NCBI GenBank assembly: GCA_016191015.1
Contig: JACPPM010000270.1
Coordinates: 1 to 38,906, forward strand
Length of the DNA stretch: 38,906 bases
Reading direction: 5' to 3'
Source: Acidobacteriota bacterium
Lineage (GTDB): Bacteria > Acidobacteriota > CAIWXX01
This document shows positions 14,966 to 38,085 of the stretch, in pieces (the stretch's first letter is position 1; every line of letters starts with the position of its first letter). The notes under the pieces are model-generated. The model saw only the letters and a program-made list of their open reading frames with translations. It was not told the origin of the DNA and made no database searches. Made by a program: the position numbers and the translations under genes.

Positions 14966-16993
14966 ATGCCGGATGCGTTTCAGGCGGCTCGAGAAGAATG
15001 CGATCTGGTGATGAAGGGCGGCGTCACCAGCGGGATGGTCTATCCGCCCCTCCTTCTTCGCCTCGCCACAAAGTATCGGTTCCGCCACATCGGGGGGACA
15101 TCGGCCGGGGCGATTGCGGCCGCCGCTGCGGCTGCGGCCGAATACGGGCGTGAATCGGGCGGATTCGGCCGCTTGGAGGAGCTTCAAAACAAGCTGTGCG
15201 AGAAGGGATTCCTGCGCAGCCTCTTCCAACCTTCTGCGAAAACGCGCCCCCTTCTGGATACCGCGATTGACTTCGCTGCGGCCATCAAGGAATGGCGGTC
15301 GAAGTCGAACCCAGCGGGATCACAGGCGCGCAGATTCGCGGGGCTCGCGTGGCTGATGCGCCGTGTTCTCGCCAGTTCGCACAAGTCCGCCTTCGACACC
15401 GGCACTCTCATCTCGGCGCTGGCAGGGCTCGGAGTGGCGGGAGCGATCACCCTCGTCGTATGGCTGGTGCTGCTCGTCGCCGGCCGGGTGCCAGGCGGCC
15501 CCGCGCTGACAGGTCTGCTTGCGGTGCTCGGAGGCCTCTGCGCCTTGAGCTTCGGCCTCATCGGTGGCGCGCTTTGGTGCGCGATCGACCTCGTCAGGAT
15601 TCTCCTGAACGAGGTGCCTGCGAACTTCGTTGGTGTCTGCACGGGCAGAAAAGACCCGGGCTCCGCCGACGACACCGTGGTGCTCACGGACTGGCTTCAC
15701 GATGAGATCAACAGGCTCGCGGGACTGCCGGTCGACGGTGATGCGCTGACCTTCGGCCAGCTCGAAGAGAAGAAGATTCTGTTGCGAATGATGGCATCGA
15801 ACCTCAGCCAGGGACGCCCTCATCGACTCCCGTTCGAGAACCGTTTCATCTTCAACGAGGCAGAGATCGCCAAACTCTTCCCAGGGGTGATCTGCGAACA
15901 GCTCAAGCGCGATGCTCACCGCAGCGATCGACTCTCACTTCCTGAAGGCTACTTCTTTCTCCCGGATCCGAAAGATCTGCCGGTGGTCGTGGCCACGCGC
16001 CTGAGCCTCAGCTTTCCGATTCTCATCAGCGCGGTGCCCCTGTACACAGTGGACTGGGGTACGCTGAGATCCGGGAAGCGCGTTGGTCCCCTGGAGATCG
16101 CAGTGGATCAGCTACAGGCCAACTGGTTCAGCGACGGCGGGATCTGCAGCAATTTCCCGATCCACTTCTTCGACCGCTGGCTGCCGACGCGGCCGACGTT
16201 CGGGATCAAGCTCGCGGCTCTACCGCCCAAAGCGATGGAGAAGAGGGAGCTGGACGACGAACGGGTGAGCGCGCGATTTCTCGCACGGCAGTCGGACAAC
16301 GTCTTCTCGATCCCCGCGAAACAGCTCGATCCCGATCAGCTTCCCGATGTGGACGATTCGGGCGAGTGTTTCGAACCTGCCGGATCCGGCGACCACGAAA
16401 TCGATCGGGCAGTATGCCTGCCTCGCGCAAACGAGACGATGGCCGCCGAGTGGGTGCCGCTGGAGGGCAACGATGCCAACGGAGGGGCCCCCGGCCTCCT
16501 GCAGTTCGTATGGGCGATCTTCGCGACGGCACAGAACTATCGCGACAATGCACAAGCGATGCTGCCGAGCTACAAGGAGCGCATCGTGCAGATCCGGCTC
16601 AGCAGCGACGAAGGGGGGCTCAATCTCGCGATGGGACCCGACGTCATGCAGAAAGTTGTCGCAAAGGGAAACCGTGCGGGAGAGCTGTTGACACGCTTTC
16701 GCTTTGACCATCACCAATGGGTCAGGTTGCAGGTGTTGATGGCGCAGCTCGAACGCGAGCTCACCACGATGGTCGGTGCGCTCGACAGGAAGGGATTCGA
16801 CCTCGCTGCCGTGATCGACCAACAGATCCACTCGGCGGATCGCTTCCCCTACGCGCGAGACAAGCTGTGGTGCGCAAGGGCGACGGAAAGGATCACCGAG
16901 CTGAGATCGATGGTCGCCCGCTGGAATAAGTCGGCCTTCCAGGAATCCGTCCCCAGGCCGAAAGCCAGCCTTCGCGTGACGCCGGAGAGCTAG
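14966..16993 (+). CDS. Patatin-like phospholipase with membrane insert
   Basis: This 675-residue protein opens with the patatin hallmarks: an oxyanion glycine stretch (LVMKGGVTSGMVYPPLLLRL) and the nucleophile elbow GGTSAG with Ser46. The partner aspartate lies in SDGGICSNFP (Asp390), so a Ser-Asp catalytic dyad for acyl-ester hydrolysis is complete. Between them, roughly residues 138-205 carry two strongly hydrophobic segments (ALAGLGVAGAITLVVWLVLL and LTGLLAVLGGLCALSFGLIG), which would tether the enzyme to a membrane. The C-terminal 250 residues are helical and of unknown function. AGGAGGT stands 5 nt before the ATG. The gene looks monocistronic. Confidence 0.88.
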   Translation: MPDAFQAAREECDLVMKGGVTSGMVYPPLLLRLATKYRFRHIGGTSAGAIAAAAAAAAEYGRESGGFGRLEELQNKLCEKGFLRSLFQPSAKTRPLLDTAIDFAAAIKEWRSKSNPAGSQARRFAGLAWLMRRVLASSHKSAFDTGTLISALAGLGVAGAITLVVWLVLLVAGRVPGGPALTGLLAVLGGLCALSFGLIGGALWCAIDLVRILLNEVPANFVGVCTGRKDPGSADDTVVLTDWLHDEINRLAGLPVDGDALTFGQLEEKKILLRMMASNLSQGRPHRLPFENRFIFNEAEIAKLFPGVICEQLKRDAHRSDRLSLPEGYFFLPDPKDLPVVVATRLSLSFPILISAVPLYTVDWGTLRSGKRVGPLEIAVDQLQANWFSDGGICSNFPIHFFDRWLPTRPTFGIKLAALPPKAMEKRELDDERVSARFLARQSDNVFSIPAKQLDPDQLPDVDDSGECFEPAGSGDHEIDRAVCLPRANETMAAEWVPLEGNDANGGAPGLLQFVWAIFATAQNYRDNAQAMLPSYKERIVQIRLSSDEGGLNLAMGPDVMQKVVAKGNRAGELLTRFRFDHHQWVRLQVLMAQLERELTTMVGALDRKGFDLAAVIDQQIHSADRFPYARDKLWCARATERITELRSMVARWNKSAFQESVPRPKASLRVTPES

Positions 16994-27965: not shown

Positions 27966-28331
27966 CTACACATCGGCCTGATCTACTCCCGCGCGTAGAC
28001 GGCGATGACCTTCCAAGACGGTCAGTACGTCGATCGTCTCATCGGTGACGCGATAGACGGTTCGGTAGGAGTGCCGGATGAGCTCGCGGATTTCGTCGCG
28101 GTCGAGCTCCGGAACGACGCGGCCGCTGAGCGGAAAGGCGCACGCCGGTTCCACGGCCTCGATCAACATACCCACCCGGTGTGCAGCAGCGTCAGGGTTG
28201 TCTTTGCCGATGAAATCACCTATCTCGATGAGATCGTTTTGAGCGCGATCCGTCCACTGAATCGTGCGCGCGCGGCGAGGAGGTGGAGCACCGGTTCGAG
28301 CTCTGGCTGGACCCCGGCGCCGGGTGCTCAT
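27966..28331 (-). CDS. RelE/ParE family toxin
   Basis: This 121-residue protein has the ParE/RelE pattern: TIQWTDRAQNDLIEIGDFIG (first strand and helices), then GRVVPELDRDEIRELIRHSYRTVYRV, then a last strand IDVLTVLEGHRRL. A proline- and arginine-rich extension of about 21 residues precedes the usual start, probably forced by the 4-bp ATGA overlap with the antitoxin gene. Family members poison translation (RelE) or gyrase (ParE), and the sequence alone does not decide which. Confidence 0.85.
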   Translation of the reverse strand: MSTRRRGPARARTGAPPPRRARTIQWTDRAQNDLIEIGDFIGKDNPDAAAHRVGMLIEAVEPACAFPLSGRVVPELDRDEIRELIRHSYRTVYRVTDETIDVLTVLEGHRRLRAGVDQADV

Positions 28332-28621
28332 CGGCTTCTGCGTTGGCGATACCGTTTTCGGATTCGAGCGACGACGGACGCGTGATCCGTGAGCCGGCCC
28401 GCTTCAGCATCCTTGAGCCCTTCCTCGACCGCGGCGACAAACCGCTTGCGCTCAGTCAGCTCGTCAAAGACTAGCGGTGAAACCAGGACGCCGGCGGGCT
28501 TCCCGTTCTGAGTGATGACAACCGCCTGCCCGGTTGCAGCACAGCGCCTCAACCACTCGGCCGCCTCTGTCTTGAACTGGCTCACCGGAACGATATCTTC
28601 CGAGACACGCAGTGCCCTCAT
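28328..28621 (-). CDS. Phd/YefM family antitoxin
   Basis: This 97-residue protein has the Phd/YefM DNA-binding fold (IVPVSQFKTEAAEWLRRCAA) followed by VVITQNGKPAGVLVSPLVFDEL and an extended C-terminal toxin-binding tail. Two adjacent ATGs exist; the one at 28621 has 5 nt to GGAGGT and the one at 28624 only 2, so the inner ATG is chosen. It leads the operon with the toxin gene. Confidence 0.88.
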   Translation of the reverse strand: MRALRVSEDIVPVSQFKTEAAEWLRRCAATGQAVVITQNGKPAGVLVSPLVFDELTERKRFVAAVEEGLKDAEAGRLTDHASVVARIRKRYRQRRSR

Positions 28622-28630
28622 CATGCACCT

Positions 28631-29387: not shown

Positions 29388-29487
29388 TCAAGCCGCGATT
29401 CTCACGTTCTGCCTCGGACTCAAACCCGAAAACGAAACACGGACAGAGCGCGTTGGCTGACACCTGCCGTCTCCTACCAGTCGATCC

Positions 29488-30030
29488 GCCGCAGTCCCCT
29501 TTTTGGCCTTTCGCGTTTCGACAGCGCACATGGGACGCCTGCCTCAAGACGTACTACAAGGAGTCGCAATCCCCTTATTGGCCTTTCCCGTTTCGACTGA
29601 CGCTGAGAAGCACGCGCAGGCGATCATCAACTTGTCGCAATCCCCTTATTGGCCTTTCCCGTTTCGACTTACGAACGCATTCCACCGGACGGAGTTCGCG
29701 CGTTTGAGTCGCAATCCCCTTATTGGCCTTTCCCGTTTCGACCACTACGAGGAAGACTCGCAAGGATGGCACGACAGAAGTCGCAATCCCCTTATTGGCC
29801 TTTCCCGTTTCGACTAACTTACGTCAGTGGTTCCCTTTAATGACTGATGATGTCGCAATCCCCTTATTGGCCTTTCCCGTTTCGACACATCGGCCCGTAT
29901 ACCTGCACGCTGTGCGGGAACTGGGTCGCAATCCCCTTATTGGCCTTTCCCGTTTCGACCGACCTGCTCAATGCGGCAATGAGTGAAGTGAAGAAGTCGC
30001 AATCCCCTTATTGGCCTTTCCCGTTTCGAC
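29488..30030 (-). CRISPR. CRISPR array 1 (8 repeats, 7 spacers)
   Basis: The 35-bp repeats begin at 29488 (degenerate), 29563, 29634, 29708, 29780, 29852, 29925 and 29996. On the plus strand each starts GTCGCAATCCCC and ends CCCGTTTCGAC. Spacers are 40, 36, 39, 37, 37, 38 and 36 nt. On the minus strand the repeat ends ATTGCGAC, similar to the ATTGAAAC-type handle of many crRNAs, so transcription is predicted leftwards. The repeat at 29488 differs at four positions and would be the distal end. No cas1, cas2 or cas6 lies near. Confidence 0.97.
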
Positions 30031-30416
30031 TCCGCCTTCCCCAGACTACTGAAAAATCCGGCCTTGGACCCCCCCTCTGCGGGGATCTCGCGAAACTCGC
30101 ATCCCTGAGCCCCGAATGGTCGATGAAACACCTCCCTTCCGCTTGACGTATCCGTCTGCTTTCAATGACTTGCGCTTGCTGCGAGGATGATTTCGGTGCC
30201 GCTGAGGTGCCACTTTCCGTAATGCGCCGAATATCAATCACTTGGAAGCCGAACCGAGGACCATGCCTTCCGGACGTCCTCATCCTCGCAACGCAGAGTT
30301 CCACAATACTGTGAAGGCTGGAAATGTGCCACATGAAACATTCCGTACGGTCCGGATGTGGCGACTGGCCATTGTCGATCGCAAAACCTCCCCCTTCGCG
30401 GACAACCTCGCCGCCA
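30031..30416. other. Gap between array 1 and the cas operon (candidate leader)
   Basis: With leftward transcription this gap would hold the array 1 leader. I see no AT-rich leader, no convincing promoter and no terminator after the last cas gene, so array 1 may be transcribed with the cas operon. No gene with a family signature is present. Confidence 0.4.
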
Positions 30417-31526
30417 TCAGACTCTCTTCAGCGGCACTGCGCTGTTTACACCGTGCTTGAACCAGTGAAAGTCCGGATAGGAGAATCTCCGTCGGTCCTT
30501 CTCATCCCATACCAGCATGACGCGCAACGCTTGCATGGTGGGAGAGGAATCACCCACATAGCTGGTCGTCCGCGCAGCAATCTGCTTCAGCAGCTCCCCT
30601 CCCTCCCATCGCTGCTCGCCATGGCACGCCAGCGAAGAGTAGCGGGACCTAGGAGTCGGCAGCAAAGTCATTGTCTCGATTCGGACGTGGCAGCTCCCGG
30701 CCCCAAGGGATTTGGCGTAACCCAGCTTGTGACGCAGGGGCCCGGTGAGCCTGAGATCATCCTGACCCCCTATCGGCACATGGACTTCGGCCCGCTCCTC
30801 GAGTGCGACGACGTAAAGCAGCAGCGAGAGCTCCGCGTCAGTGAGGTTCTCAAACTGAACCGAGAACCGGAAGGTGTGTCCCTTGGGCAGAACATCGATG
30901 GTCCACAGATCGGCCTCTTTTGCCGCGGTCGGATGTCGAAGTGCGTCCACTTGGCCTGGCTGGTGGAAGTAGAACTTCCGCTGGCGGCCGTCCACCACGC
31001 CGGATCCTGGCGTCTTATAGAATGCGGTGTGGCTGGGCTTGGGGGATCCGAGGTAGACAGCGGCTTGGTGGAGTCTCCCGTCCCCATGCACGAGGACGCC
31101 ATCGCTTATGGATATCTTCCCCTTGAGCACACGCGCATGCGCTTGTCTCTCCATCATGCCGAACATACGGCACGTGATGCAGAGCGACCGGCAATCCGTG
31201 CACGCCTCTTGGCTGTCGTCCACCTCCCACGTCTTGTTCTTAACGAGCATGCATCCGCCACCGACCAGTTCCGCCATGGAGCGGAAGAGTCCCTTGAGCG
31301 AGGTGCCGGGGATGACGGGCTTATTGGCTCTCGTGATGAACTGCTTGTTTTTCCCAACGGTCTCCTTGCCGATGAAGAGCGGCGTGAGGGTTGTCAGCAG
31401 ACAATCGAGCTCACCTGTTGCCGCATTCACGACAAATCTCTCTCTTGTAAGAGGGGCTTCCCGCCGAATGGTGTCACGCGTTGGAACGAAGCGATACGGA
31501 TTCCAGAGCTCACTCCCCTCCGGCAT
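30417..31526 (-). CDS. TIGR03986-type RAMP protein (Cas7-like)
   Basis: This 369-residue protein begins MPEGSELWNPYRFVP; the NPYxFVP start is characteristic of the TIGR03986 RAMP family found with type III-D loci. The RAMP motif PGTSLKG is at 73-79, followed by a cysteine-rich stretch ending CITCRMFG. A glycine-rich core and a C-terminal region ending DFHWFKHG follow. RAMP proteins bind crRNA in the effector backbone. I see no catalytic aspartate at the position equivalent to Csm3 Asp33. The open frame runs upstream to 31991, but ATG 31526 fits the family and overlaps csx19 by 17 bp. It is the last gene of the operon. Confidence 0.85.
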   Translation of the reverse strand: MPEGSELWNPYRFVPTRDTIRREAPLTRERFVVNAATGELDCLLTTLTPLFIGKETVGKNKQFITRANKPVIPGTSLKGLFRSMAELVGGGCMLVKNKTWEVDDSQEACTDCRSLCITCRMFGMMERQAHARVLKGKISISDGVLVHGDGRLHQAAVYLGSPKPSHTAFYKTPGSGVVDGRQRKFYFHQPGQVDALRHPTAAKEADLWTIDVLPKGHTFRFSVQFENLTDAELSLLLYVVALEERAEVHVPIGGQDDLRLTGPLRHKLGYAKSLGAGSCHVRIETMTLLPTPRSRYSSLACHGEQRWEGGELLKQIAARTTSYVGDSSPTMQALRVMLVWDEKDRRRFSYPDFHWFKHGVNSAVPLKRV

Positions 31527-32037
31527 TGCTCTCCCTTCCCGGCATCTCTTCGATGCGATAGTACCTGCTGAACTGGACGATTTCGTTTCGACCGACCCAG
31601 TTTTGCACAGCCAGCGCCACCCGACCTCGATTGTGGACAGCCGAATCGATGGGGTAGGCAAACCGGTGCGGAACCTGTTGCTCGATCCACTCATTCTCGA
31701 GATTGGTCCTGACTCCCCACAACACAAACCTGTCGATGCGCGGGGCGAGTTCGACCAGGGCAGCAGAGCGATCCTCGCCTTCGATATGAGGTGGCCCTTC
31801 TCCAAGATAAACGACGCGCATGGACCGCCCCACTCTGCGCCATCGCAGCTCACCTCGGGGCGAGAATATCCTGCCTTGCTCCGTCGCCGCGAGAAATTCG
31901 CGATCATAGGCGTATCGGCAAAAGCGTTGCAGACCAGGTCCAAAGGCAATCTGGAGAGCCTCTGACGGAATGTTGGCCGCGCCAAGCGCATCGATAAACT
32001 GGTTCACCTCCATGTCCTTGGTCGTAAGCAGGCTCAT
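31510..32037 (-). CDS. csx19: Csx19 (TIGR03984-type) CRISPR-associated protein
   Basis: This 175-residue protein holds the stretch GRIFSPRGELRWRRVG (residues 55-70), which I recognise as the hallmark of the Csx19/TIGR03984 family that accompanies type III-D modules. Other parts (VLWGVRTNLENEWIEQQVPH and VQNWVGRNEIVQFSRYYRIE) fit the same family outline. Its biochemical role is unknown. ATG 32037 overlaps the preceding RAMP gene stop by ATGA, so it is translationally coupled. The frame is open upstream to 32079. Confidence 0.75.
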   Translation of the reverse strand: MSLLTTKDMEVNQFIDALGAANIPSEALQIAFGPGLQRFCRYAYDREFLAATEQGRIFSPRGELRWRRVGRSMRVVYLGEGPPHIEGEDRSAALVELAPRIDRFVLWGVRTNLENEWIEQQVPHRFAYPIDSAVHNRGRVALAVQNWVGRNEIVQFSRYYRIEEMPGRESNAGGE

Positions 32038-33017
32038 GCGTTCCTCCCACCTGTGTAACTCACGATGCTCGCCGGCCACCGAACCGTCTCAATGTACCCG
32101 ACGAGATCATCGACTGCTGGGGTGAGAAGATCCTTCCACGTTTCCTTGATGTCGTAGACATGACGGAGACCTTGCTGGTCTGGTGAAGGAAGGGGAATGT
32201 CGGTTGGCCTCTCCGGGTGAAAACCGTAGAGCTGACACTCGTCCTGAGTGGCCAACGCCGTGACGCCCGAGAACGACCGCACCGGTCGACCATAGTACCC
32301 TAGCTGAAATTCAGTGATAGCCGCCTTGATGCGTCCAAGCCCGCGGCTGCCACCCGACCCGATGCGAATCAGTTCCTGTTCCATGTCGCGCAAGATGAGC
32401 GCGACCATCCCGAGTTGCCATCGCTCGAAGTTTTGGATCTCCAAGGTCGTCGAGAACGTCCCCCGCACCAAGACTTCCAAATCGTATTTGGCAGAGCCGG
32501 CTGCCCCGCCGGTGAGACGGTCGATCGCGACTCCGTCTCGAACCTCAAACACCGCGCTGCTCCCTGTGCTCAGATAGGCATCTGAGGTTGCGAGCCTCCC
32601 GATGTAATCATGGGAGCCGAATAGCCTGCAGGCGGGGCAGGAGTGACGGTAGATTTCGTTGGTGGGCAGCGTGTTGAGTTTCCGATCTTTCTTGTATTTT
32701 TCGAAACGAAGTCCGCAGGAGGCCTGGCCCTTCTCTACGTCTTTCTCTCTGCCTACCTCCACATACGGAAGACACACCGGCACAGGCTGAGTCCGAAGGG
32801 TCCGACAGATCTTCTCCCCGTAGGACCGCAAGACTCCCTTGAGGGAGCTGCCGGGGATGAACGGCTCACCCAGGCCGCCTCGATGACGGGTTCGGACAAA
32901 GGACATGTTGACGCCGCTGACCGTCGCCTGGCTCGACTTGATGAGGAGGGGATCGACGGGAGTTATGGTGAGCTTGATAACCGCGTTGTTGACCAATCTC
33001 TTAAGCACTACCGTCAC
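32034..33017 (-). CDS. Csm3-like RAMP protein (Cas7), larger paralogue
   Basis: This 327-residue protein carries PGSSLKG at 55-61 and the RAMP cysteine motif CPACRLFGS at 127-135, both shared with the next gene upstream. The residue aligned by eye with the cleaving aspartate of Csm3 is Asn37 (GVNMSFVRT), so this subunit may bind the crRNA-target duplex without cutting. A mid-protein glycine stretch GSGGSRGLGRIK is the second RAMP signature. The start is GTG 33017, which overlaps the upstream gene by 17 bp; GTG 33008 is an alternative. Confidence 0.85.
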   Translation of the reverse strand: MTVVLKRLVNNAVIKLTITPVDPLLIKSSQATVSGVNMSFVRTRHRGGLGEPFIPGSSLKGVLRSYGEKICRTLRTQPVPVCLPYVEVGREKDVEKGQASCGLRFEKYKKDRKLNTLPTNEIYRHSCPACRLFGSHDYIGRLATSDAYLSTGSSAVFEVRDGVAIDRLTGGAAGSAKYDLEVLVRGTFSTTLEIQNFERWQLGMVALILRDMEQELIRIGSGGSRGLGRIKAAITEFQLGYYGRPVRSFSGVTALATQDECQLYGFHPERPTDIPLPSPDQQGLRHVYDIKETWKDLLTPAVDDLVGYIETVRWPASIVSYTGGRNA

Positions 33018-33807
33018 CTCGTGCGTCCAGCACTCTCCTCAGGGCTTCGTTCAGGAGCGCAGGGGTCTCTTGCATTTTCCTGTCGATGAGGTAGGCCCGC
33101 AGGTGCTCGGCATTGCCGTAATCGACAGTCGACACGGCAACGTCCTTCAGCTTCGCGCGCCCTAGGCCACGCGACGTGAAACCGCCGATGCGGCACCCCA
33201 CTTCCCATTCTGCGACGACCGCGGCGACCAAGGCCACGTCCTCGTCGGTAGGATCTTCAAGCTCGATCTGAATCGTGTACTGGGCGCCCGGCCCAACGAC
33301 TTCATAGTCATACTTGGCACCGTGAACGGCCGTGTGACTGTCTCTATCGATGCAGACCCCGTCGCGCACCTGGATGCTCTTTCCCCACTCCTTCAGCGCC
33401 CCATCGCTGAAGTAGATGTGCGAGCCTTGATAAGGGGATCCGAAAAGCATACACACATCGCAGGTGTGCCGTTGGAGCCATTTGAGCTTCTCCGCCTCGC
33501 TGCCCAGATTCTTGAACTCTTCGTGAACCCCCTTGCGATACGACTCGTCGGTGACGCAGCTGACACCGGAGAGTGAGCCGTCGAGCAGGCAGGCAGTCAG
33601 CTTCAAATGAGGCGCGAGGCGTTCGGCTGTGGAACGGAAATTTCCTTTCAAAGATGAACCAGGAAGAATCGGTTCACCACGCCGATCCAGAAGAACTCCC
33701 ATATCCGAGGCCAGATCGCCCTCCTTCCCTGAACCCACGTGGAAGGCAGTTTCAAACTCGATGTCACCCTTGATCTTGATGCGCCTTACAAATCCCTTCT
33801 TGCCCAT
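33001..33807 (-). CDS. csm3: Csm3-like RAMP protein (Cas7), probable target-RNA nuclease
   Basis: This 268-residue protein has the Csm3 outline. AFHVGSGKEGDLASDMGVLL is followed by PGSSLKG (49-55), and Asp35 aligns with Csm3 Asp33, the residue that cuts target RNA every 6 nt. CDVCMLFGS (116-124) and a glycine-rich loop (IGGFTSRGLGRAKL) complete the family pattern. It should be a backbone subunit in several copies. ATG 33807 lies directly after the stop of the preceding gene, with GGGAGG before it. Confidence 0.9.
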   Translation of the reverse strand: MGKKGFVRRIKIKGDIEFETAFHVGSGKEGDLASDMGVLLDRRGEPILPGSSLKGNFRSTAERLAPHLKLTACLLDGSLSGVSCVTDESYRKGVHEEFKNLGSEAEKLKWLQRHTCDVCMLFGSPYQGSHIYFSDGALKEWGKSIQVRDGVCIDRDSHTAVHGAKYDYEVVGPGAQYTIQIELEDPTDEDVALVAAVVAEWEVGCRIGGFTSRGLGRAKLKDVAVSTVDYGNAEHLRAYLIDRKMQETPALLNEALRRVLDARGDGSA

Positions 33808-34284
33808 CTATTCCCTCCCTACGCAGAAATAGTAGTGAGTCGCAAAGTGCTCGAAGTAAATGCCGATGATCTCGTTGAGAAGCCGTTCCGCCGCATCTCT
33901 GTTCTCGTGCTTTGCACGGGATAGTGCGACCTTGTCCGTCAGACTGGCAAGACTCTTCAACACACCCAGCTTCTCGAGCTGATCAGTAACGATAGGTCGA
34001 AGCGCATGGGGCCCCTCGGCCCTCGTGAGCAATTCAAATACGAAACTCCAAAACTCCTTGTTTTCTTTCTTGGTGTTCTTGGATTTCTGGCGTTCGGCCA
34101 GCTCTTTGATGCCACCGTACCCGGAGCTCTGGATGATCGAGGAGGTGGATTGGAGCTGAGCACGGCTGGCAAAATGCTCGTGCTGCGCCAGGTACTCATC
34201 CACGGCGGCTATCGCAGCGTTGCGAAGTCGCTCGTCAGCGAACAGCGCAATCTCGTCCCGGATCAGATCGTCATTTAGTCTCAT
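33808..34284 (-). CDS. Helical small protein of the type III-D operon
   Basis: This 158-residue protein is predicted to be almost all helix (MRLNDDLIRDEIALFADERL, IKELAERQKSKNTKKENKEF, HENRDAAERLLNEIIGIYFE). Its middle is very rich in lysine. It overlaps the Csm2-like gene by 14 bp and directly precedes the Csm3-like gene, so it probably joins the effector complex. It could be a second small subunit or a chaperone-like partner. I do not recognise a named family, and it lacks the glycine loop and histidine expected for Cas6. ATG 34284 is chosen over an upstream frame start at 34398. Confidence 0.8.
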   Translation of the reverse strand: MRLNDDLIRDEIALFADERLRNAAIAAVDEYLAQHEHFASRAQLQSTSSIIQSSGYGGIKELAERQKSKNTKKENKEFWSFVFELLTRAEGPHALRPIVTDQLEKLGVLKSLASLTDKVALSRAKHENRDAAERLLNEIIGIYFEHFATHYYFCVGRE

Positions 34285-34699
34285 GTGAAGCCCTCCGGAG
34301 CGCAGAGCCATAGAGGTAGTGTGCGACGACCTGTTTTGCCCAGCCTCGCGCCAGGCGGAGCTTGAGGTCGAGGACGGCGCCCGGATCGCCAGCTCCAATT
34401 CGATGCGCCTCCTGTTCGAGACTGCTCAGCTGGTCTAGCAACGCGGGTGCGACCTTCGCCCAGCCTCCGGCCCCGCCGGCCTTTTTCTTCTCTTTGCCTG
34501 CCTGATTTTTGATGTAGTTGATGATCTCGGAGAAGCGTGTCGTGGCGTTCACGAGCGTTTCGAATCCTCTGAGCTGAGACTTCGTGTCCAGCCCCGCCGC
34601 CACTATCGCATCTGCCAACTTGACCGACTCAGGATAGACCTGTTCAAGAAAGATATCGATCTTCCCAAGCATTTCATCAGACACGGGCCGACGAGCCAT
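34271..34699 (-). CDS. Csm2/Cas11-like small subunit
   Basis: This 142-residue helical protein has DTKSQLRGFETLVNATTRFS at residues 38-57. This resembles the T-x-SQ-I/L-R-x-F motif at the start of the main Csm2 helix. A lysine-glycine linker (KEKKKAGGAGG) splits two helical halves, and LKLRLARGWAKQVVAHYLYG near the end matches the K-x-x-L-A-Y-A-x-x-R pattern of Csm2 loosely. Csm2-type subunits line the target-binding groove. ATG 34699 shares a base with the csx10 stop and has AAGGAGG at 7 nt. Confidence 0.75.
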   Translation of the reverse strand: MARRPVSDEMLGKIDIFLEQVYPESVKLADAIVAAGLDTKSQLRGFETLVNATTRFSEIINYIKNQAGKEKKKAGGAGGWAKVAPALLDQLSSLEQEAHRIGAGDPGAVLDLKLRLARGWAKQVVAHYLYGSALRRASHETK

Positions 34700-35844
34700 C
34701 ACAGAACCTCCTTACAAACATGCAACGGATCACAAACGGACACCGAGCCGAATCCCTCCTGGCGCCTGAGCCCGATTCCCTCCGCGCTCACCCGTGCAAG
34801 CCGCCGGGCAAGTTCCTCCTGCCCGCCGCCTCGGTAGCGGAACAGGAAGACACTCCCGCGAGCGACTCCCAGCTCTTCCGGCTTGGCCATCCCCCATGCC
34901 CAGTTCCAGCCCTTGATCGCCACTGCCTTCAATACTCGAGCAACCTCTTCAGCACCGTCGATCTGCAGATCGATGTCGGCCACATTCCGAAGAAAGTAGT
35001 CAACCAGAATAGCGTGTGACCGAAGAGTGACGCTGAAGTAAAGGCCATTCGGGAGGTCTACCAGAGCGTGGTCGCGGAATTTCCTGTCCCACGCGTTCAC
35101 ATCGATCGCTGGCTCATCGACTTCCTTCAGAGAGAGACGGATTTCTCCAAACCCGCGCGTCCTGCCCGCGCCTACGAAGACCGGTCTGCCGAAGATCTCG
35201 TTCAGAACCGCTGCCTGCGAAGGAGAAAGCCGGGTCTGCCCGCAGAAGATCTGATTAACGGGCTGGCCGTCGCTTTTTCTGACGAAGTTGTTGACCGACT
35301 GAGTCGTGTAGAAGATCCCCTGAGCCACCGTGCGCGTCAATCGGTCGATGCCGGTGTGCCGTCGATAGAGCTCCGATGTGGCCGCAGAATGTGGGTCTGT
35401 GCAATCGCCGTTCCACACACCTTCGAAAGTCTTGACTTCGTTCTTGCAACCGTCGTGGTCGCAGTTCCATGCACTCTGATTCGCCGGCTTTCCGGTGACC
35501 CTGGCGACGGCGGTCAGAGCGAGAGTGTCCCGCACGCCGTGCCGCCCCTCCTTCCGAAACCCCGGTTCCCGTTTGCATGAGACGACGCTCAACGGGAGTG
35601 GCTTTGTCTCAGCCCCAAGCTCTTGCGAAGGGAGAAGGTCAGGGAAGCAGACGGGATTCTCGATGAAAAGATCTCGGAACTTGGCGTCTGCAGGTCCGCC
35701 GAACGATCGGCAATACGTAGCCGCCATCGCGCCGAGAAGCGTGCTGCCGGGTATGTACGTAAGCGTCCCCGACTTGCTGGACTGCCTGTCTTCCTTGACC
35801 ACCAACGGAGCGAGCGCTTCAGCCGAGATGATGTGCGGCTTCAT
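34699..35844 (-). CDS. csx10: Csx10 (Cas5-like RAMP of type III-D)
   Basis: This 381-residue protein begins like Cas5-group RAMPs, with ALAPLVVKEDRQ and then YIPGSTLLGAMA (30-41). It ends with the Csx10 signature GLRRQEGFGSVSVCDP. Csx10 is the marker of subtype III-D and should bind the 5-prime handle of the crRNA. A cysteine cluster (Cys128, Cys133, Cys148 with nearby His130) in the middle could bind zinc. It starts with ATGA overlap to the RAMP upstream. Confidence 0.9.
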   Translation of the reverse strand: MKPHIISAEALAPLVVKEDRQSSKSGTLTYIPGSTLLGAMAATYCRSFGGPADAKFRDLFIENPVCFPDLLPSQELGAETKPLPLSVVSCKREPGFRKEGRHGVRDTLALTAVARVTGKPANQSAWNCDHDGCKNEVKTFEGVWNGDCTDPHSAATSELYRRHTGIDRLTRTVAQGIFYTTQSVNNFVRKSDGQPVNQIFCGQTRLSPSQAAVLNEIFGRPVFVGAGRTRGFGEIRLSLKEVDEPAIDVNAWDRKFRDHALVDLPNGLYFSVTLRSHAILVDYFLRNVADIDLQIDGAEEVARVLKAVAIKGWNWAWGMAKPEELGVARGSVFLFRYRGGGQEELARRLARVSAEGIGLRRQEGFGSVSVCDPLHVCKEVL

Positions 35845-36566
35845 GACCCCTCCTTCATCTGGTCGGCGCGAAAGAGGGTGTAGAGCTCAACGAGATCAGA
35901 ATCACCCAGGTTCTCAAGAATCCTCAGCAGCTCGATCGCCCGCCCGTTGTATGAGAGTTTCGTTACGTGCAGGTTGATTGCACCTGCGCCCGAGCTCTTG
36001 TCTCCCCCCATACGATCGACATTCAAGATACCGGCGATCATCACACAGTACGCAAACGGCACCGCTCCATCGCCGGTCGTTACAAGTTGACGATGATATC
36101 CATCGACGGTGGTCAGGAATGTTCCACCGCCCGCGTACTCGGTAGAGAAGAGATGCTTCGTGCGTGCCGTCCTCAGTCCCCGGTACATCGCTGTGCGACT
36201 CGTCACCTGTGTCGTGGGAGGCATTTCCTCAGCGAGCTGGTACGCATCCCGAAAGAAAAGCTCACCCCCTTCGTATCTGTTTCCAAAGAGTGCATCCACT
36301 GGTGATTCCACCTTGGCCAGAGGCAGGAAATCGCTGGCGGAGGCGAAGGCAGATGTATGGGGATCTGCCGGCTCCGGGTATCCGAGGGCGCGCGAAAGGC
36401 GCTCACAACTCTCGCGAACCACGCCCTTCAGCGTGCTGGCAGGAATGTAGGGACGCCCCATGCCATCTCGCTGCACGATCCTATCCGCGGCAGGGCTTCC
36501 TTCGCCTGAACCCATGTGCCACCGAGATGTAAACTCGATCCTCAGCTCTAAAGAAATGGAGTGCAT
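35841..36566 (-). CDS. Cas7-like RAMP protein
   Basis: This 241-residue protein starts MHSISLELRIEFTSRWHMGS and carries PASTLKG at 42-48, a RAMP lysine loop. Asp28 (SPAADRIVQRD) lies where Csm3 Asp33 would be, so it may cut target RNA. A DALFGNRYEGGELFF stretch and MGGDKSSGAGAI (glycine loop) complete the fold. No CxxC pair is present, unlike the other Cas7-like subunits here. ATG 36566 has AGGG 5 nt before it; a GTG at 36572 is an alternative. Confidence 0.88.
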   Translation of the reverse strand: MHSISLELRIEFTSRWHMGSGEGSPAADRIVQRDGMGRPYIPASTLKGVVRESCERLSRALGYPEPADPHTSAFASASDFLPLAKVESPVDALFGNRYEGGELFFRDAYQLAEEMPPTTQVTSRTAMYRGLRTARTKHLFSTEYAGGGTFLTTVDGYHRQLVTTGDGAVPFAYCVMIAGILNVDRMGGDKSSGAGAINLHVTKLSYNGRAIELLRILENLGDSDLVELYTLFRADQMKEGS

Positions 36567-36576
36567 GATCACCCTT

Positions 36577-38085
36577 TCATCTCATGAGCTCGGTGAGCTC
36601 GATCAGATCCACCAATGCCGTTGAACAGACAGTTCCCTCAAGATCGCGCCATGGCAGGCTTGTCAGACAGTCGAGCTCATTGAGGGCGTCCAGGAGAACC
36701 TGCCGCTGCCCTTTCTCCTTCACTCTACCGATGAGCTTGAGACACTCGATCGTTCCGTTCATCTTGCCGAGGAACGGCGCCTGCCGCAGCCGTATGGTAC
36801 GTGACCGAGGAAGATCAGAGGCGACAATGGCTGCGGCGTGCTGAAGGAGCTTGTGGGCCTGATCGAGTGAATAAGGACGGCAATGGAAATGCAATTCGTG
36901 TCGAACATGCCTTCTTGTTAGAAATCGCTCTCTCGAGTCGTGCACATGGACTTGGTTGAATTGGGATGTGTCGTGGAAATCGATGTAGGAAGGGACATAT
37001 GAATCATTGGCCGTGACATCACATGATCCGCCCCTCTTGGCAGATCGCAGTAGCTCCTCGGCCTGCTCAAGCAGCACGAAGAACGGGGTGTGGCTCTTTC
37101 CAAACGCAATCCCGAGCGAGAGCGTCACTCCTTCTTCTCTCGTTCCGACAGGAGCGAGCCCGCTTCTGCCGAAGCGGGCTTTCGTCTTCTCGTGGAACTT
37201 ATCGGCAACCGAGATCGCGAACGGGAACGCAGCATCGGCCGACAGGCAGACAAGAAGATCGTCCCCGCCGAGAAGGAGTATGTCTGCTCGCACTGCGGGG
37301 ATCGCAAGGCTCTCAGCCAAGGCCTCGTGACATGCCTCTCTGATGCACGTGTCGATGGTTTGGGAGAAAAAGGCGAATTGCTTCCGGTCGTCGATCGACC
37401 TGATGATCTTGCCCATGTGATTGCCGTCTGCGTAGACGAGTGCGAGGTACCCGGCCTTCTTGGAGGAGCTGCCGATCTCCTCGAACGTGGTGGGGCGTTC
37501 GAAAGTATCGTTCGCGCCCCTGGAATCAAGAAACTCCTCGAAGCCGCGCCAGAGTCCTTTATTTGTCCTCCCGAAATCGAGCTTCCGGTGGCAGGTGTCG
37601 CAGAGGATGACTTCATCGCCGGCATGTTCCTCGACCGTGGTCGCCATTCCCGAGCAGCTATCGCATTCGCGAATCAGCCCTGAGTGCATGGCTGGTGTCG
37701 ATCGAAAAGGGTTCTCTTCCTTCTCCTGTTTCATTCTCATGAAGGCGGAAGCGAGGCTCTCCCTGTACTGACCTCGGACCATCTCCGCCCTCCCGCTTAC
37801 AAGTCGTAGGCCTCCTCGTGATTCCTTGACGAAGCACCCCTTCAGCTCCTCGATGACATCGTCGATCCTGCCTTCATCGCCGTTGAGGAGGAACTGGGAT
37901 GCGCCTCCACCGGCAAATACCAAATCAACCGCCGTGTCGCCGAGCGCTGTCTTCAGGAACCGTTCCGTTCCGATTCTGTTGAGATGGTCCAGCAGCGCGC
38001 TCGCGCCCCGAATCTCCACAAGGCGATCGGTTCCGAAGACGTAGTCTTTGATGGACGGGACATCGAATACGACCAAGTGCTTCAA
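36577..38085 (-). CDS. cas10: Cas10 with GGDD cyclase motif, lacking the HD domain
   Basis: This 502-residue protein starts directly in the first palm-like domain (VVFDVPSIKDYVFGTDRLVE). A zinc finger follows (CDSC at 141-144 and CDTC at 162-165), then the catalytic palm with YADGNHMG (218-225) and LLLGGDDLLV, GGDD at 273-276. It ends in a helical C-terminal domain. The N-terminal HD nuclease domain usual for Cas10 is absent, and no separate HD gene lies upstream. It should therefore make cyclic oligoadenylate from ATP but not cut DNA. The start is TTG at 38085 with GGGAGGAG before it. It is the first gene of the operon. Confidence 0.93.
   Translation of the reverse strand: MKHLVVFDVPSIKDYVFGTDRLVEIRGASALLDHLNRIGTERFLKTALGDTAVDLVFAGGGASQFLLNGDEGRIDDVIEELKGCFVKESRGGLRLVSGRAEMVRGQYRESLASAFMRMKQEKEENPFRSTPAMHSGLIRECDSCSGMATTVEEHAGDEVILCDTCHRKLDFGRTNKGLWRGFEEFLDSRGANDTFERPTTFEEIGSSSKKAGYLALVYADGNHMGKIIRSIDDRKQFAFFSQTIDTCIREACHEALAESLAIPAVRADILLLGGDDLLVCLSADAAFPFAISVADKFHEKTKARFGRSGLAPVGTREEGVTLSLGIAFGKSHTPFFVLLEQAEELLRSAKRGGSCDVTANDSYVPSYIDFHDTSQFNQVHVHDSRERFLTRRHVRHELHFHCRPYSLDQAHKLLQHAAAIVASDLPRSRTIRLRQAPFLGKMNGTIECLKLIGRVKEKGQRQVLLDALNELDCLTSLPWRDLEGTVCSTALVDLIELTELMR

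Follow-up and report, generated by a model that had tools for sequence, protein, structure and literature searches.

The cas10 gene close to one end of the window (by which we mean the whole stretch of DNA analysed here, 38,906 nucleotides) very probably encodes an HD-less type III-D cyclase, the large subunit of an RNA-sensing CRISPR complex, that would act by signalling, as judged from sequence comparison and a structure model. The HD domain was lost from this protein or was never present, and an HD-less Cas10 is the norm for subtype III-D, not an oddity. With its cyclase site intact, Cas10 is best predicted to signal without itself cutting DNA. The window represents a whole contig (C235) of a 6.43 Mb genome and ends inside a CRISPR array, and a candidate receiver of the signal is encoded on a second contig (C318). 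The features are collected in Table 1.

Domain structure of the window Cas10

The gene starts with TTG, and a strong Shine-Dalgarno-like sequence (GGAAGGGAGGAG) lies immediately 5' of this codon. The protein carries GGDD at residues 273-276, two CxxC pairs at residues 141-144 and 162-165, and a YADGN motif at residues 218-222. GGDD is unchanged in 7 of 7 aligned sequences; in an alignment of 20 sequences G273, G274 and D275 never vary, and D276 differs in one sequence only (GGDE). Pfam matches palm 2 (Cas10-Cmr2, E = 4.6e-16) and, below threshold, residues 25-101 (Csm1_B), and gives no match to an HD family in this protein. In an AlphaFold2 model built with the 20 aligned sequences (pLDDT 88.7, pTM 0.90), palm 1 begins at residue 2 and consists of a beta strand (2-8), two helices (12-17 and 22-48), two further strands (53-59 and 62-68), a helix (71-88) and a final strand (96-101). 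An HD domain hidden in the N-terminal 110 residues had been named as a possible refutation of the original prediction; in the model this region is palm 1 and contains no HD domain. In a phmmer alignment with the archaeal III-D Cas10 8bmw_K, which bears an HD domain, residue 3 is paired with residue 314 of that protein, and therefore the approximately 310 residues that precede palm 1 in the archaeal protein are absent here. Model and alignment together rule out a hidden N-terminal HD domain. What had been read from the letters, namely a protein of 502 residues that starts in palm 1, has an intact GGDD and intact CxxC pairs and lacks an HD domain, is borne out by the open reading frame and its closed upstream end (see below), by the alignments and by the model.

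The PADLOC Cas10 model is matched over virtually its whole length (protein 1-407, profile 2-414 of 414, E = 4.5e-67), and since it covers the protein from its position 2 onwards, the HD-less form is already represented in the libraries. The PADLOC model for Cas10d also matches (2e-38). By sequence as well as by fold, the top PDB matches are III-D Cas10s: Foldseek ranks four structures of the HD-less III-Dv Cas10 of Synechocystis first (TMq 0.77-0.81, E down to 7.9e-25; best match 8s9t_C, TMq 0.81), followed at lower rank by SsoCsm and the III-A Csm1 proteins.

A single-sequence search of genome contigs gave no match to Cas10 relatives; with an alignment of three sequences, 26 relative loci were found on GTDB genome contigs, of which 23 (L042-L064) have a Cas10 frame of 401-609 residues. 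In none of these 23 is the stretch before palm 1 long enough for an HD domain. Palm 1 starts at most 80 residues from the start of the frame in 22 of the 23, the other (L062) being a frame without most of palm 1. III-D genes adjoin cas10 in 22 of the 23 relatives as well; the remaining locus (L055) lies at a contig edge and has only a cas6-like neighbour. The Cas10 proteins of the relatives also start at palm 1, and the gene order is that of the window operon.

The type III-D operon

The nine genes of the operon are unfused and lie on the minus strand in the order cas10, RAMP, csx10, small subunit, a protein without family match, csx7, csx7, csx19, RAMP. Because csx10 and csx19 are present and the subunits are unfused, we assign the operon to subtype III-D with a III-D1-like layout; judged by its genes, it is an ordinary type III-D effector. 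The match of csx10 to TIGR02674 (E = 2.3e-46, 158.8 bits) falls just under the NCBI cut-off of 177.3 bits. The familyless protein sits between the small subunit and the first csx7.

Two of the Cas7-type subunits, the RAMP of 243 residues and the first csx7, keep the Asp in the alignment column that we take to correspond to the RNA-cleaving Asp of Csm3, and would likely slice target RNA. The second csx7-type protein has Asn (GVNM) where nearly all relatives carry Asp (GPDM), and one RNA cut site may have been lost in this way. The description as a pure signalling Cas10 fits the Cas10 protein itself, with its intact GGDD and no HD domain, but probably does not extend to the complex as a whole, given the aligned Asp that two Cas7-type subunits retain.

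Table 1. Features of the window and of two further contigs of the same genome (positions without a contig name are those of the window).
Feature	Position	Strand	Evidence
Patatin-like phospholipase, 675 aa, with apparent hydrophobic stretches	14966-16993	+	
ParE / Phd-YefM toxin-antitoxin pair, adjoins array A	27966-28624	-	
CRISPR array A, ~8 repeats, variant CCCTTATTGGCCTTTCCCG, then leader-like sequence from 30031	29484-30034		Repeat reading
RAMP of the TIGR03986 family, ends the operon, ATG probably at 31526	30417-31526	-	TIGR03986 E 4.9e-48, over cut-off
csx19, 189 aa, accessory subunit typical of III-D	31510-32079	-	TIGR03984 E 4.7e-10, over cut-off; PADLOC Csx19
Second csx7-like Cas7 subunit, 327 aa, Asn instead of Asp	32034-33017	-	TIGR02581 E 6.6e-33, over cut-off
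csx7/csm3-like Cas7 subunit, 268 aa, Asp conserved	33001-33807	-	TIGR02581 E 2.4e-39, over cut-off; column alignment
Small operon protein without family match, probably 158 aa from ATG	33808-34284	-	Homologues in L035 and L043 at the equivalent place
Small subunit, Cas11/Csm2-like, 143 aa	34271-34702	-	PADLOC Csm2 E 2.4e-4; equivalent place in the operons of relatives
csx10 (Cas5 of III-D), 381 aa, the signature gene of the subtype	34699-35844	-	TIGR02674; PADLOC Cas5_IIId 2.3e-48
RAMP of Cas7 type, 243 aa, retains Asp in the column of the Csm3 catalytic Asp	35841-36572	-	Pfam RAMPs E 2e-18; column alignment
cas10, III-D type, HD-less, 502 aa: palm 1, zinc finger, palm 2 (GGDD), C-terminal helical domain	36577-38085	-	Pfam, phmmer, AlphaFold2, Foldseek, PADLOC
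CRISPR array B, variant CCCTCATTGGCCTTTCCTG, degenerate end beside cas10, runs off the contig end	38361-38906		Repeat reading
Most probable continuation of array B	C318:1-625		Nine repeats
cas6-RT-cas1 fusion, 955 aa, adjoins cas2	C318:1174-4041	-	
CARF-HEPN (Csm6/TIGR02710) protein, 436 aa	C318:4117-5427	-	TIGR02710 E 1.6e-46, over cut-off; HEPN PF09670 1.1e-27; PADLOC CARF_HEPN 7.2e-92
Degenerate repeat pair with similar flank	C318:5531-5690		
Membrane protein of the Cmr module, 309 aa	C318:9384-10313	-	
CARF-like protein of the Cmr module	C318:10325-11077	-	PADLOC CARF_RelE 3.6e-6; alignment to clear members
III-B Cas10/Cmr2, 627 aa, GGDE	C318:13514-15397	-	
Broken cas3 remnant (half of HD, start of helicase)	C169:10552-12104	-	

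Two further features of the window lie outside the operon and its arrays, a toxin-antitoxin pair and a patatin-like phospholipase; no PADLOC defence-system model matches the latter.

CRISPR arrays and the probable contig join

The operon is flanked by arrays A and B, whose repeats are closely related. In a pattern search of the genome the repeat was found on only one other contig, C318 (L022). This contig starts with nine repeats of the exact array B variant (array A differs) in matching orientation, and leader-like sequence follows. The partial spacers at the two contig ends, 10 nt on C235 and 26 nt on C318, add up to 36 nt, a normal spacer length, an agreement that may also arise by chance. 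Array B most probably continues on C318, which would then adjoin the window contig; we infer this join without overlapping sequence. In some relatives (L036, L039) adaptation genes likewise adjoin the III-D operon on its cas10 side, a layout that fits the join.

The flanks beyond the two arrays (window 30031-30330 and C318 626-925) are closely similar over ~250 nt, which would fit a duplication of the leader. On C318 a similar flank also accompanies a third, degenerate repeat pair.

Adaptation genes, CARF-HEPN protein and Cmr module on C318

Beyond the array, C318 carries on its minus strand cas2, a cas6-RT-cas1 fusion, a gene for a CARF-HEPN protein, two degenerate repeats and a III-B Cmr module. 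The fusion suggests that spacer uptake from RNA is possible. The CARF-HEPN protein matches the Csm6 family TIGR02710 (Cas_Cas02710), and the motifs of both domains can be read in its sequence (TGGTK in CARF; RSHSLLAH, of the form RX4-6H, in HEPN). No solved structure related to it by sequence was found. The genome has a single TIGR02710 match and two Cas10 palm 2 domains, one in the window Cas10 and one in the Cas10 of the Cmr module. The latter carries GGDE instead of GGDD and is HD-less too, since only ~35 residues precede its palm 1, too few for an HD domain.

The Cmr module also encodes a membrane protein paired with a CARF-like protein, which we consider a candidate two-gene effector. The membrane protein has a conserved C-terminal tail (WxEExxTxPL) and no family in Pfam or PADLOC; the structure model for its family is poor (pLDDT 55). 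A six-frame search with PF09651 gave no match at E 0.1, even though the partner is CARF-like. Homologous pairs occur directly downstream of III-D operons in three relatives (L049, L051, L062), where the CARF protein is of APE2256 type. CARF genes beside other HD-less III-D operons are of this type in the same three loci and of NE0113 type in two more (L043, L047).

The candidate receiver of the signal

As originally noted, a scan of the operon proteins and of further ORFs of the window found neither CARF nor SAVED. The receiver is missing from the window but probably not from the genome: the genome-wide receptor search proposed at the outset yielded one TIGR02710 CARF-HEPN protein, encoded on what is most probably the continuation of the array. 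The same search gave no match to SAVED, a weak negative because control genomes were equally silent, and none to Csx1_CARF, for which the control gave matches. The absence of a receptor from the window is best explained as a contig-end artefact of assembly fragmentation, and we note that 'no receptor in view' can arise generally from contigs that break inside CRISPR arrays.

In the mechanism that we propose, a crRNA-loaded III-D complex would bind a matching foreign transcript, whereupon the GGDD site of palm 2 would polymerise ATP to cyclic oligoadenylate (cOA; both the activity and the nucleotide are predicted) and the Cas7 subunits with catalytic Asp would slice the target RNA. The CARF-HEPN ribonuclease of C318 would read the signal and would be common to the III-D complex and the neighbouring III-B Cmr module with its HD-less Cas10. 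We lean towards the CARF-HEPN protein as the receiver for the window Cas10, a role that we infer.

A competing reading, less probable yet a serious one, is that the CARF-HEPN protein serves the III-B Cmr complex only and that the III-D Cas10 has a different or unknown receiver, for example the pair of CARF-like and membrane protein, whose homologues stand directly downstream of III-D operons as described above. In five of eight further genomes the relatives of the CARF-HEPN protein are found beside cmr genes, and since they adjoin III-B more often than III-D, the protein may belong mainly to Cmr. Against an exclusive role speaks one relative (L038) that adjoins a III-D operon in a stretch where cmr genes were not found, as does the position of the gene on C318, where adaptation genes lie on one side of it and the Cmr module on the other, all transcribed in one direction. 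Sharing of one receiver by the III-D and III-B complexes is plausible. The fuller picture, in which both HD-less complexes, side by side with one cas6-RT-cas1, signal via the one CARF-HEPN protein and perhaps also via the CARF and membrane protein pair, is put forward tentatively.

It is improbable that the window complex signals with a molecule other than cOA, such as SAM-AMP. The receptor found is a CARF-HEPN protein of Csm6 type, and proteins of this class are activated by cOA; no CorA was recognised among the scanned cas genes neighbouring the loci. The thought of another signal derives from some III-B Cas10s that make SAM-AMP (PMC10600005) and from CorA homologues present in some III-D loci (PMC12669027).

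Other possible sources of an HD domain

That a separate gene supplies an HD nuclease acting in trans with the window Cas10 is very improbable, in agreement with the original prediction. The sole over-threshold Cas3_HD match in the genome (C169:10852-11148, E = 7.8e-14) spans profile positions 97-207 only, and the N-terminal half of the profile, which presumably carries the HD motif, is absent from it. The match is part of a broken cas3 remnant, on a contig without CRISPR repeats and not close to either type III locus, and the cas genes that accompany the two Cas10s include no recognised HD protein. A nuclease in trans is rejected on these grounds. The remnant itself (L073) points to a type I system that was once present.

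Hardly credible at all is a truncation that removed the HD domain in this gene only, or a wrong start or a frameshift that masks it: TTG is a less common start codon, but it is preceded by the Shine-Dalgarno-like stretch, and relatives across several phyla share the start position of cas10. The stop-to-stop frame of 513 codons opens only 11 codons before the start and the CRISPR array begins ~280 nt upstream of cas10, so that no HD domain can sit upstream; none of the three upstream frames between cas10 and the array contains an HD-like ORF, and we reject this reading.

Comparison with known systems

The absence of the HD domain agrees with what is known of the subtype. Among the III-D Cas10s in a survey of 1113 type III loci, 3% had a recognisable HD domain, and its authors concluded that cOA signalling is the main mode of action of III-D (PMC11229360); phylogenies cited by a study of III-Dv likewise place most III-D Cas10s among the HD-less proteins (PMC11026444). 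The window Cas10 alone matters little; it confirms the signalling-only Cas10 as the rule in III-D. A shared receiver, if true, would provide a natural example of cOA signalling between loci, a possibility that the survey raises (PMC11229360). With two HD-less Cas10s, one TIGR02710 CARF-HEPN protein and one pair of CARF-like and membrane protein, the genome offers a clean test case for the sharing of cOA between CRISPR subtypes.

The closest known counterpart by whole-chain fold is the III-Dv Cas10 of Synechocystis sp. PCC 6803 (8s9t-8s9x; PMC11026444; TMq 0.81, at an identity of ~18% to the structural match), which keeps GGDD and whose HD domain is truncated or disrupted. For this HD-less complex, target-RNA-dependent synthesis of cOA and activation of Csx1 have been shown (PMC11026444). 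As in the window, a csx10-type Cas5 and Csx19 are part of the system; the III-Dv complex differs in its fusions (Cas7-Cas5-Cas11 and Cas7-2x), whereas the window subunits are separate genes as in III-D1. The Cas10 of the archaeal III-D complex SsoCsm (8bmw_K, 829 aa) is homologous in the palm 1, zinc and palm 2 regions (E = 1.4e-9) but bears its HD domain in the region before palm 1 that the window protein lacks; because such a III-D Cas10 exists, lack of HD does not define the subtype. The Cas10 of VmeCmr from Vibrio metoecus (PMC8682760) resembles the window Cas10 in being HD-less and in acting by signalling only, with the difference that VmeCmr is a III-B system with cA3 and NucC, whereas the window encodes a III-D system for which a CARF-HEPN protein is the candidate receiver.
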